Source: Ideonella sp.
GTDB lineage: Bacteria; Pseudomonadota; Gammaproteobacteria; Burkholderiales; Burkholderiaceae_C
Direction of reading: 5' to 3'
Assembly (NCBI GenBank): GCA_015075545.1
Contig: JABTUC010000001.1
Coordinates: 558,001 to 622,000 of the forward strand
Length of the DNA: 64,000 nucleotides
Part shown: positions 8,882-13,079 of the stretch, one piece after another
Position numbering within the stretch: position 1 is the first letter of the stretch
Layout of the letters: the number at the start of each line of letters is the position of its first letter
Translations under genes and position numbers: made by a program
The notes under the pieces: model-generated
Told to the model about the DNA's origin: nothing
Databases searched by the model: none
Seen by the model: the letters and a program-made list of their open reading frames with translations, nothing else

Positions 8882-9673
8882 TCAGGCCAACTGCGCGGCC
8901 GCCAGCAAGGTGCGCGTGTACTCGTGCTGCGGCCGCTGGAACACCTCGCGCGTCGGCCCGCGCTCGACCACCACGCCGTGCTGCAGCACCAGCACCTCGT
9001 CGCACACCAGGTCGACCACCGCGAGGTCGTGGCTGATGAAGAGGTAGGTCACGCGCCAGCGGTCCTGCAGGTCCTGCATCAGGTTGAGCACCTGCGCCTG
9101 CACCGAGACGTCGAGCGCGCTCACTGGCTCGTCGGCCACGATCAGCTGCGGCCGCGTGATCAGCGCGCGCGCGATCGCGATGCGCTGGCGCTGGCCGCCG
9201 GAGAACTCGTGCGGGTACTTGTCGAGGTCGCTCGCGCGCAGCCCCACCGCGTCGAGCGCCTCGGCGGCGCGCTCGCGCTGCTCGGGCGCAGCCGCGCCGT
9301 GCAGCACCGCCAGCGGCTCGGCCACCGTCTGCGCCACCGTGCGGCGCGGATCGAGCGAACCGTAGGGATCCTGGAACACCATCTGGAAGCCGCTGCGCGC
9401 GCGGCGCAGCGTCGGCGCATCGAGGCTTGCGAGGTCCTGGCCGCCGAAGCGCACGGCGCCCGCGTCGGGTTGCTCCAGCGCCATCACCAGCCGCGCCAGC
9501 GTGCTCTTGCCCGAGCCCGACTCGCCCACCACGCCGAGGCTGCGGCCGGCACGCAGCGTGAAGCTCACGTCCTCGAGCGCACGCACCAGCGGCGCGGGGC
9601 GGAACACGGTCTCGCGCGGCAGACGGTAGCGGCGGCTGACGCGATCGGCCTGCACCAGCGGTGTTTCAGGCAT
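8882..9673 (-). CDS. Peptide ABC transporter ATP-binding protein, DppF/OppF type (short form)
   Basis: 263 residues. Walker A GESGSGKST (50-58), signature FSGGQRQR (157-164) and Walker B LIVADEP (177-183) are intact. It ends just after EYTRTLLAAAQLA and lacks the roughly 50-60 residue oligopeptide/dipeptide C-terminal extension usual in DppF, so it is shorter than most relatives. It overlaps the stop of the DppD-type gene by 8 nt, which implies translational coupling. It should pair with that ATPase to drive the permeases at 13870-15947. Confidence 0.88.
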   Translation of the reverse strand: MPETPLVQADRVSRRYRLPRETVFRPAPLVRALEDVSFTLRAGRSLGVVGESGSGKSTLARLVMALEQPDAGAVRFGGQDLASLDAPTLRRARSGFQMVFQDPYGSLDPRRTVAQTVAEPLAVLHGAAAPEQRERAAEALDAVGLRASDLDKYPHEFSGGQRQRIAIARALITRPQLIVADEPVSALDVSVQAQVLNLMQDLQDRWRVTYLFISHDLAVVDLVCDEVLVLQHGVVVERGPTREVFQRPQHEYTRTLLAAAQLA

Positions 9674-10661: not shown

Positions 10662-10754
10662 CGGTGCAGGCGGTGTGACGACACGACACGATAAACGATC
10701 GGCCGCGTTGCCCATGAAGGGCGCCCGCTATGATCCGCGCCCACGAGGAGTGAC

Positions 10755-11148
10755 ATGGCCATCCGCAAGAGCAGCGCTAAGCCCAAGGCGCAGACCGGCG
10801 CCTTCGTGCATGCCGATGCCAACGAAGCGCTGGTCGATCGGCCCGAGGTCGTCAAGGGCATGGCGCGCGCAACTGGCCGCTGCACCGTCGTGGCGCCGAT
10901 TCCCACGCTCTGCCTGCCGGCGCCCAAACAACCATCGTGCTCCAGGTCTGCCAAGCGTTCTTTCCGAGCACCGCGGCGAGGGACGGTTTGAAGCGCGGTT
11001 TGAAGGCCGAGTTCGACGACGGCGGGTCGGCGCAGCTGGCCGCAACAGCAGCGCGCGGGTTAGCTACGGCTCGCACGAGCAGATCGAGGTGAAGGTGATC
11101 GACGATCGCGGTAACGAGCTGCTGATGGTGAAGGAGCTGAAGCCGTGA
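10755..11148 (+). pseudogene. Remnant of a type III-like DNA methyltransferase (mod) gene, internally deleted
   Basis: Two pieces of coding sequence sit in 394 nt. The first, from ATG 10755, reads MAIRKSSAKPKAQTGAFVHA and stays open to a TGA at 10991. The second, in other frames, reads DGLKRGLKAEFDD (about 10981-11020) and then EQIEVKVIDDRGNELLMVKE (about 11077-11140), ending at 11148. I recognise the LKAE..D and KVI..GNE endings as the extreme C-terminus of type III Mod-like adenine methyltransferases, and the GAFVHAD start is like their N-terminus. None of the catalytic centre (DPPY, FxGxG) is left, so the gene is dead. Its stop overlaps the AAA start (GTGA). The family call is from memory and moderately sure. 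Confidence 0.5.
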
Positions 11149-12335
11149 GTCAGGTCTTGCGATTCACCCACTTGCGCTTGCGCAACTGGCGCAATTTCAC
11201 GCATGTGGACATACCGCTGGCCAAACGCATGTTCGTCGTCGGGCCGAACGCGGTGGGCAAGTCCAATCTGCTCGACGTGTTCCGCTTCCTACGGCACTTG
11301 ACCTTGGAGGGTGGTGGATTGGCGCAGGCCGTCAAGGCGCGCCGCGGCTTATCGCGCCTGCGCTCGCTACATCACAAGGGAGCGAATTCCGATGTCGAGA
11401 TCGAGGTTCGCGCCATGGACGCGGACGGCGGCCGCTGGCGTTATCTGCTGGCCTTCAACCGCCTCGGTCGTGGCGGCCGGGACGAGACCCCTGTCGTCAA
11501 GCGCGAGGAGGTTTGGTTCCAAGCCAGCAGTGCGCAACAGGAGATCAGCCAGCTGCGACGACCCGACTCCGAGGACAAGGCCGACGAGCTGCAGCTCACG
11601 CAGACGGCGATGCAGCAGGTGGCAAAGACCAAGAACTTTCGCGATCTCAAGGAGTTCTTGTCGAGCGTCACCTACTTGCACCTGGTTCCTCAGCTCATCC
11701 GCGAGGAACAGCTCCCGCCCGAAGACGCAATCGGCGGCGATCTGTTCGGAAGAGATCTGCTGTTCAGAATCCGCGCGACGCCACAGCGCACGCGCAACGC
11801 ACGGCTGGGGCGCATCAAGGACGCGTTGAAGATCGCCGTGCCTAATCTGGACGATCTCCAGCTCGTGGATGACTCGCAAACCACCCGACCTCATCTGCAA
11901 GCCGCTTTCCGTCACTGGCGCGGCCCGGCGGCCAAACAGGATGAGCGCGAGTTTTCCGACGGCACTCTGCGCCTGATTGGCTTGTTGTGGGCGATGCAGG
12001 AGCCGGCCGGACCGCTGCTGCTCGAAGAGCCCGAGCTGTCGCTGCACTCGGGCATCGTGCGTCACCTGGCGGCATTCATCGCCCGCGCGCAGCGAGGGCC
12101 GAAAGGCAGACAGGCGTTCGTGTCCACTCATCATGATCTGCTGATGTCGGACCCCGGCATCGGGGCCGACGAAGTGCTGCTGATCCGTCCGGCACGAGAG
12201 GGCTCCGAGGCTGTACTCGGCGCCGCTCGGCCCGACATCCGGGAGGCGTTGCAGCATGGACTGTCGCCTGCGGATGTAGTGATGCCGTTGACGGCGATGG
12301 ACCAGATCGATCTGTTCGCCGAGCTGAAGGTCTGA
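11145..12335 (+). CDS. AAA family ATPase (OLD/RecF-like, AAA_21 type), likely defence component
   Basis: 396 residues starting at a GTG that overlaps the preceding stop. Walker A GPNAVGKSN is at 33-41, an ABC-like signature FSDGTLRL at 270-277, Walker B LLLEEPELSLH at 291-301 and a STHHDLLMS switch at 327-335. This order is that of RecF/OLD-type ATPases with a lid inserted between the Walker motifs. G+C is visibly lower than the flanks (33 of 60 on the line from 11641 against about 40-45 on lines near 9-9.5 kb). It is followed after 1 nt by a DUF4276 gene. In known defence systems such ATPases sense infection and control a TOPRIM nuclease partner; that role is inferred here. Confidence 0.85.
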   Translation: MSQVLRFTHLRLRNWRNFTHVDIPLAKRMFVVGPNAVGKSNLLDVFRFLRHLTLEGGGLAQAVKARRGLSRLRSLHHKGANSDVEIEVRAMDADGGRWRYLLAFNRLGRGGRDETPVVKREEVWFQASSAQQEISQLRRPDSEDKADELQLTQTAMQQVAKTKNFRDLKEFLSSVTYLHLVPQLIREEQLPPEDAIGGDLFGRDLLFRIRATPQRTRNARLGRIKDALKIAVPNLDDLQLVDDSQTTRPHLQAAFRHWRGPAAKQDEREFSDGTLRLIGLLWAMQEPAGPLLLEEPELSLHSGIVRHLAAFIARAQRGPKGRQAFVSTHHDLLMSDPGIGADEVLLIRPAREGSEAVLGAARPDIREALQHGLSPADVVMPLTAMDQIDLFAELKV

Positions 12336-12336
12336 A

Positions 12337-12906
12337 GTGATTCCTGCGCTCGTGGAGGGCTACCTCGAAGAGCGGCTGATCGGCGCGTTGTGGCGTCAAC
12401 TCGGCAGGCACGAAGAGCCGCTGGTGGTGCGCAATGCGGGTGGCAGCCCCTTCTGGGCGCATGCACGCCGCTACAACGAAGCGGGGCGGCACCGGATTGT
12501 GCTCGGACTCGCCGATCTCGAGCAGGAGGTCTGTGCGCCGGCGGCGATCGACAAGCTCGGCAAACCGCTGAGCGCGGGCTTCAAGCTGAGGCTTGCGGTG
12601 CGAATGATCGAAAGCTGGATCATGGCCGACAGGGAGGCCTTCGCCGCGCAGTTCGGCCTGCGCGTGGCCGACGTGCCGTTGCAGCCTGATCTACTCCCGC
12701 ATCCCAAGCGCACGGTCGTGGAATTGGCCAGACGCAGCCGGAAGAAGTTGGTACGCGACGCGATGATTCCCGCCGGTGTCGGCCTCGTAGGTGCCGAGTA
12801 CACAGCGTTTATGGCCCGATTCGTCGAGTCGCGATGGCGTCTGAGGCATGCGCGCACTCGCAGCCCGAGCCTCGAGCGAGCCTGTCTGCGCTGGTCGGGA
12901 GCCTAA
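12337..12906 (+). CDS. DUF4276 family protein (TOPRIM-like partner of the AAA ATPase)
   Basis: 189 residues from a GTG 1 nt after the ATPase stop. The family pattern is clear: VEGYLEERL near the start, GLADLEQEVCAP (about 57-68), RLAVRMIESWIMADREAF (about 87-104), PHPKRTVVELARRSRKK, and a C-terminal RWRLRHARTRSPSLERACL. The early Glu of VEG..EE and the Asp of GLADLE are where a TOPRIM nuclease would place its metal ligands, but the second acid is Glu rather than the usual Asp of DxD. It is probably the effector that works with the ATPase. The domain relation to TOPRIM is my inference; the DUF4276 call is firmer. Confidence 0.8.
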   Translation: MIPALVEGYLEERLIGALWRQLGRHEEPLVVRNAGGSPFWAHARRYNEAGRHRIVLGLADLEQEVCAPAAIDKLGKPLSAGFKLRLAVRMIESWIMADREAFAAQFGLRVADVPLQPDLLPHPKRTVVELARRSRKKLVRDAMIPAGVGLVGAEYTAFMARFVESRWRLRHARTRSPSLERACLRWSGA

Positions 12907-12910
12907 GGAC

Positions 12911-13079
12911 ATGCTCGACTTCCAGGTCAATAGCCGATGCTCAACTCGCCATACGAGGAACCGAAGCGGCACTGTTGCATCCACGAGGACAAACCCGTCG
13001 AGCTGATCGAAGGGCATCGCTTGCCGATCTGCATCTGGTGCCCGCCCCGCCAGGGCGATGCTCGACGAGGCCCCGGCAA
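12911..13079 (+). pseudogene. 5' remnant of a type III-like restriction (Res/helicase) gene
   Basis: ATG at 12911, 4 nt after the DUF4276 stop, reads MLDFQVNS. After a small frame-changing interruption the second piece (from 12937) reads LNSPYEEPKRHCCIHEDKP and VELIEGHRLPICIWCPP. The NSPYEEP..H......EGRRP pattern is, from memory, the N-terminus of the BPTD_3080-type restriction endonuclease subunits (SF2 helicase plus nuclease). The reading becomes antisense to the downstream dsbA-like gene by about 13080, so everything after the first 50 or so codons is gone. It matches the mod remnant on the other side of the AAA-DUF4276 pair. Confidence 0.5.

Follow-up and report, generated by a model that had tools for sequence, protein, structure and literature searches.

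The intact pair and the broken genes around it

The window analysed here is a stretch of 64,000 nucleotides (nt) from Ideonella sp. (assembly GCA_015075545.1, contig JABTUC010000001.1, positions 558,001 to 622,000), and the element in question is a pair of intact genes, coding for an SMC-type ATPase and a small, putatively TOPRIM-like partner protein, which lies between the remnants of a type III-like methyltransferase gene (Mod) and a restriction enzyme gene of the BPTD_3080 family (Res). A sequence-only reading of the locus had described two open genes, an AAA ATPase and a DUF4276 gene, inside a broken restriction-modification (RM) operon with joints of a 4-nt overlap, 1 nt and 4 nt. Both open reading frames (ORFs) and all three joints were confirmed: the Mod remnant and the ATPase gene share the letters GTGA (11145-11148), a single nucleotide (12336) separates the ATPase gene from that of the partner, and four (12907-12910) separate the latter from the Res remnant.

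The ATPase retains the motifs GPNAVGKS (Walker A), LLLEEPE (Walker B) and TH, and its residues 5-389 align with positions 1-376 of 382 in the PADLOC model HEC-01A (PDLC04180, E 3.1e-125). The partner, with the acidic motifs E7 and D60-x-E62, matches the HEC-01B model (PDLC04194, E 1.3e-39, residues 4-184 on positions 8-192 of 204), and every one of the seven PADLOC models matched to E 1 was HEC-01B. By these profile matches the pair is the PADLOC candidate HEC-01 and hence already known, HEC standing for "Hma-embedded candidate" in the accessible part of PMC12988326. The DUF4276 label is weak for the window protein alone (PF14103, E 0.21, 12.3 bits, below the gathering cut-off of 30.2) and stands better for its family, with 27 of 27 scanned members matching to E 10 (best E 8.1e-7); a literature search for DUF4276 found no paper. 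The predicted fold of the partner resembles the TOPRIM domains of OLD, GajA and PARIS and its model resembles chain A of 8ux9, which supports the likeness to OLD and Gabija proposed earlier, and a sequence search of the PDB with the partner profile gave nothing convincing (best E 0.38).

The flanking pieces were compared with profiles built from intact operons of the same bacterial order (seven intact Mods, 975 positions; Res likewise). The Mod profile matched three pieces, each in a frame of its own and in an order collinear with Mod, and the Res profile matched one, with scores of 12.9-23.9 bits (Table 1). As 500 dinucleotide shuffles read in six frames scored no higher than 1.2 bits against Mod and 2.5 bits against Res, the resemblance to Mod and Res expected by the sequence-only reading is present. 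Of its two Mod pieces the end is matched by the profile, whereas the start does not match it; these 19 codons (10755-10811) are a probable Mod start by their position and the good ribosome-binding site GAGGAG ahead of them, and a middle piece at about positions 659-691 has been added. The claim of some 50 initial Res codons agrees with the match to Res positions 7-53, to which a frame change after about eight codons, judged by eye against Res N-termini, has to be added. A Res C-terminal remnant suspected by eye near 13050 was rejected, having no profile match. In all, no counterpart remains for about 870 of the 975 positions of Mod or for almost the whole of Res, and two or more small frame changes run through what is left, one of them being the change in Res judged by eye.

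In a profile search to E 10 over 10,879 open frames (34 loci and 18 kb of the window), the matches below 60 bits were the window pieces, a piece of a split Mod at locus L111 (56 bits) and a stretch at L117 (2.2 bits). When the genome of the window, an assembly 85% complete and in 13 contigs, was scanned with the Res model NF046055 to E 1, a single place was returned, the Res remnant (E 0.01, 15.1 bits against a cut-off of 800 bits for an intact Res). This score alone proves little because 5 of 14 control genomes also give matches at E 1. This 85% complete genome gave neither a second BPTD_3080 Res match (limit E 1) nor an N6_N4 methylase match (limit E 0.01). The Mod and Res remnants stand in the order of a BPTD_3080-type operon. 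The neighbouring genes in the window align to genus orthologues, each as one unbroken stretch, so the broken frames are not explained by general sequencing error.

Table 1 Features of the island, in positions of the window
Feature	Position	Strand	Basis or detail
Shine-Dalgarno-like GAGGAG, ahead of the Mod remnant start codon	10745-10750	+	read in the sequence
78-aa ORF, putative Mod N-terminus (10755-10811) fused in frame with a Mod middle piece (10812-10910)	10755-10991	+	middle piece: profile positions 659-691, 12.9 bits
Mod remnant, second frame	10934-11065	+	profile match, positions 905-948, 22.5 bits
Mod C-terminus remnant with stop, third frame	11047-11148	+	profile match, positions 943-974 at 11047-11142, 23.9 bits
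Shine-Dalgarno-like GAAGGAG for the ATPase gene, inside the Mod C-terminus remnant	11130-11136	+	
Intact AAA_21/SMC-type ATPase, HEC-01A, 396 aa	11145-12335	+	GTG start
Intact partner, HEC-01B, remote DUF4276/TOPRIM-like, 189 aa	12337-12906	+	GTG start
Res (BPTD_3080 family) N-terminal remnant	12911-13068	+	profile positions 7-53 at 12928-13068, 22.7 bits
Whole island, between an ABC-transporter ATPase gene and a DsbA-like gene	10716-13079		

The core of the island has a G+C content of 63-65% against about 71% in its surroundings, and the two genes bordering it are about 0.13 kb apart in a sister species (G005). Since another sister species (G004) carries a different gene between them, CYTH-domain-like by eye (L067, about 9118-9640), the gap is regarded as a variable spot. 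Scans for promoter and terminator consensus sequences found nothing.

Contexts of the HEC-01 pair and contents of the Mod-Res gap

With the ATPase as query, it was detected in 6 of 100 relatives (limit E 1e-20), 9 of 399 of the order (1e-30), 8 of 369 of the class (1e-40) and 19 of 399 of the family (1e-40). The samples overlap and the genome of the window is counted in each; there are 33 distinct relatives, and all their loci were fetched. The survey of pairs with and without Mod and Res neighbours which the sequence-only reading had proposed gives three states: Mod and Res enclose the pair in four of the 33 (L022, L031, L110, L117), in one (L111) it follows Mod on a contig that then ends, and in 28 it has neither gene on any contig-covered side, several of which (e.g. 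L024, L025, L106, L108, L122) are cut on one side by the contig end. This survey, with broad profiles and a limit of 1e-4, would miss pieces such as those in the window, a gap closed by the search to E 10. One of the 28 loci, L112, retains a Mod scar; a motif pattern for Mod-end scars found none beside the 28 and missed the degraded scar of L112. The Mod upstream of the pair at L111 (1837-4592) is split over two frames, possibly by early decay or a sequencing error.

The partner is present in 30 of the 33 relatives, and the other three loci (L025, L108, L122) are cut off by the end of the contig. A BPTD_3080 Res over the cut-off occurs in nine of the 33 genomes, at the pair in G028, G386, G775 and G925, elsewhere in the genome in G700, G409, G824 and G756, and on a separate contig in G501, the genome of L111; the other 24 have none over the cut-off, with partial matches at E 1e-10 in five. 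Embedded pairs are scattered among the stand-alone ones in the ATPase tree, where the window groups with the stand-alone L020 (support 100/100).

No match to the ATPase was found by tblastn in plasmids (E 1e-20) or phages (E 1e-10), nor in viral contigs searched with the ATPase alone. The partner alignment brought up three viral contigs with the pair: L135 (3739-5483) and L136 (3823-5591), where it adjoins phage-type genes, and L137 (3310-5042), where apparent phage regulatory genes are near (gene names by eye). A search of genome contigs with the partner protein gave five loci, one with a full pair (L002, in a Candidatus Poribacteria MAG) and one with a distant ATPase-like gene (L004); in L003, L005 and L006 no pair was found by tblastn or in the ORF list. 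The comparison of loci shows the pair to be a self-contained cassette that occurs within Mod-Res slots, by itself on chromosomes, and on viral contigs.

Mod precedes Res in 16 fetched operons: four were reached through HEC-01 (those named above) and 12 by widening from BPTD_3080 hits, the latter chosen by Res type and thus non-random. Mod and Res are 3-24 bases apart in four (L075-L078), about 0.5 kb in two (L073, L081) and 1.7-2.0 kb in the remaining ten, where HEC-01 fills the gap in the four that were found by way of it. Lone AAA genes occupy the gap in L071 and L072. Other contents are a PD-T4-4 pair in the BPTD_3080 operon of L083 (5414-7413; PD-T4-4_A E 2e-116, PD-T4-4_B E 2e-15), a PDC-S01-like gene in the BPTD_3080 operon of L080 (3614-5215), a HEC-05-like gene with a GmrSD_N domain in L079 (5154-6893; HEC-05 E 2e-66) and a Schlafen AlbA_2/HATPase gene in L082 (7319-9199). 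A gene that by eye codes for a UvrD-like helicase lies directly upstream of Mod in L075 (8125-10875), L076 (8026-10833) and L079 (9922-12450), and a few genes upstream in L081 (1469-4237). HEC-01 is an uncommon tenant, since no pair was found by tblastn (E 1e-3) within the 1.5-kb flanks of 30 BPTD_3080 loci from 300 genomes of the order. The Mod end in the window reads DRGNEL. The seven Mods in the narrower profile all have RGNEL, and those of L022, L031, L110, L111 and L117 have RGIES; this difference points to a different Mod lineage around the window pair and hence to a separate capture.

Selection on the pair and alternative explanations

L112 (genome G1000) and L117 (G925) belong to one genus and their pairs share 93% DNA identity. 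L117 is embedded, while at L112 neither a Mod nor a Res gene is left beside the pair, only a degraded scar of the last 18 Mod codons, and G1000 has no BPTD_3080 match at E 1e-10. Between the two loci the ATPase has a dN of 0.0144 and a dS of 0.2445 (dN/dS 0.06, 387 codons) and the partner 0.0105 and 0.238 (0.04, 170 codons), whereas the Mod scar is near-neutral (dN 0.209, dS 0.226, dN/dS 0.93); YN00 gave a dN of 0.0146 and a dS of 0.212 for the ATPase, and 0.0166 and 0.184 for the partner. Non-synonymous differences make up 8 of 10 in the scar and 25 of 106 in the pair, taken as the ATPase and the first 183 partner codons (Fisher p 0.0006). At L112/L117, the pair is under purifying selection and the Mod scar is not. 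The dN/dS comparison called for by the sequence-only reading was informative at L112/L117 and not for the window's own copy, which is saturated against L020 (ATPase dN 0.33, dS not computable; partner dN 0.49, dS 2.6). The window ATPase was not found in any of the five other genomes of the genus at E 1e-20, and its nearest copy has 63% identity.

The reading preferred here, to which we give a probability of about 0.7, is that a four-gene operon collapsed around a pair that works on its own, with the ATPase activating the TOPRIM-like partner. The sequence-only reading had likewise suggested a role of its own for the pair, and this gains support from the 28 of 33 relatives free of Mod and Res genes on their covered sides, the 24 genomes with no Res over the cut-off, the three viral contigs, and the selection at L112 beside a scar that is not selected. 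Several observations weigh against it. L112 sits on a contig of only 4.4 kb, its partner ends in six residues in place of the last 15, and relative-rate tests of the partner are heavier on the L112 side when this tail is included (8:0, p 0.005; 6:0, p 0.014; 4:1; 6:2) and give 4:0, 3:0, 2:0, 2:1 and 1:0 when it is excluded. The ATPase has no such lean (4:5, 3:2, 6:5, 4:3). In the window, the ATPase departs at 9 of 102 conserved columns, compared with 6 of 103 for L020.

It may be argued from these departures, more numerous than in 31 of the 34 other rows, that the whole operon is dying, with Mod and Res already gone and the pair, which would have no present function, merely the last part to break; the replaced C-terminus and the excess change of the L112 partner fit this as well, and open frames alone are statistically not strong evidence to the contrary. 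We consider this unlikely, though it is the most serious of the alternatives: at L112/L117 purifying selection acts on the pair and not on the Mod scar, the relative-rate tests of the window against L020 are not significant, and a pair free of Mod and Res is the majority state. That majority also bears on a dependent mode of action, in which the pair would be a guard silenced by its RM partner and left inert or derepressed by the loss of Mod and Res. There is a precedent in PrrC, which a linked type I RM enzyme keeps silent (PMC2610378), and four relatives have the pair exactly between Mod and Res, with a fifth behind Mod. Such a guard is nevertheless improbable given the 28 loci with neither gene on their covered sides, the 24 genomes with no Res over the cut-off, five of which have partial matches, and the lack of an N6_N4 methylase match (E 0.01) in the 85% complete genome of the window.

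Finally, small frame changes can be sequencing errors, and the assembly is fragmented and incomplete, so that Mod and Res might be broken only on paper. It is very improbable that this accounts for the locus, as both genes are short of hundreds of codons, beyond what indel errors cause, the neighbouring genes align unbroken, and a further BPTD_3080 match (E 1) or an N6_N4 methylase match (E 0.01) is lacking from the genome.

Proposed mechanism and comparison with known systems

The collapse around a self-sufficient pair may be pictured as follows. A complete operon of Mod, HEC-01 ATPase, TOPRIM-like partner and BPTD_3080-type Res would once have stood between the ABC-ATPase and DsbA-like genes, as may be supposed because the remnants lie in operon order and intact sets exist elsewhere. 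Deletions and frame changes, as read from the sequence, then ruined Mod and Res where they stood, and the pair embedded between them stayed intact, its putative ribosome-binding site lying in the retained Mod end. The SMC/Rad50-like ATPase may recognise states of DNA or replication that phages induce and, once it binds or hydrolyses ATP, activate the partner, which would cut nucleic acid and stop the infected cell or the phage; the pair would thus act like OLD, GajA or PARIS, with the work divided between two chains. As part of an RM operon it could serve as a second line once restriction fails, and alone it would still work. What is observed in this scheme are the domain types, the conserved motifs and, for most of the 33 relatives, a pair with neither Mod nor Res next to it. 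The sensing of infection by the ATPase, its control of a TOPRIM-type nuclease and the abortive outcome are inferred, and the pair is most likely a self-sufficient anti-phage cassette and probably an abortive one.

A broader proposal is put forward more tentatively, with somewhat less than even confidence: the Mod-Res gap of BPTD_3080-type operons would be a dock for cargo (HEC-01, HEC-05, PD-T4-4, PDC-S01) that outlives RM decay under selection and keeps only the Mod end bearing the ribosome-binding site, collapse being a regular route to independence, caught independently in the window and at L112. The window and its relatives suggest that cassettes so lodged can work without the host operon. 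Defence genes embedded in an operon may be viewed as its accessories, and cargo-only operons are natural deletion experiments that reveal which cargo stands alone. Such operons provide a testable pair for asking if HEC-01 depends on restriction and modification in any way, and they hint at an exchange of defence cassettes among Mod-Res slots.

Both the pair and the principle of embedding were known already, a guilt-by-embedding approach being mentioned in the accessible part of PMC12988326. What is added here is a host operon collapsed around intact cargo, and the second independent collapse, at L112, adds evidence of selection there; a literature search, with preprints outside its reach, found no description of a collapse sparing its cargo. 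With HEC-01 the pair shares nearly full-length matches of both proteins, and embedding is the namesake feature of the HEC class, but in the window the host operon, now collapsed around the pair, combined a type III-like Mod and a BPTD_3080 Res. In two intact counterparts scanned, Res gave REase_III matches only (to E 1e-5), and Mod was best matched by MTase_III, with no Hma model among the best 25 of 31 and of 28 matches. The remnants match the BPTD_3080 type III-like RM operon (NF046055 Res, MTase_III Mod), whose intact sets share the gene order, but neither enzyme survives in the window. As for MADS, the MAD3 model (NF047739) gave 67.5 bits against a cut-off of 420 bits.

OLD and GajA of Gabija have in common with the pair an SMC-type ATPase and, going by the predicted fold, a putative TOPRIM-like domain, but the window carries them as two separate chains, no GajB helicase stands beside them, the Res remnant and then the DsbA-like gene being found instead, and GajA models match the pair only weakly (best E 4e-11 in PADLOC). 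PARIS is likewise made of two genes, for an ATPase (AriA) and a TOPRIM-like partner (AriB), and the window ATPase matches the AriA model at E 4e-26; it is, however, much closer to HEC-01A, and there is no AriB (DUF4435), the partner matching HEC-01B only. In type I RM operons, according to the accessible part of PMC12255303, DarTG2 or an AAA-like ATPase with a putative RNA-binding protein lies between hsdS and hsdR, again an RM slot that takes different defence cargo, though of type I rather than type III-like and with no collapse described in that part. PrrC, silenced by its RM enzyme, offers a precedent for a dependent mode, and RloC, rarely linked to such an enzyme (PMC2610378), for the independent mode that is favoured here for HEC-01.
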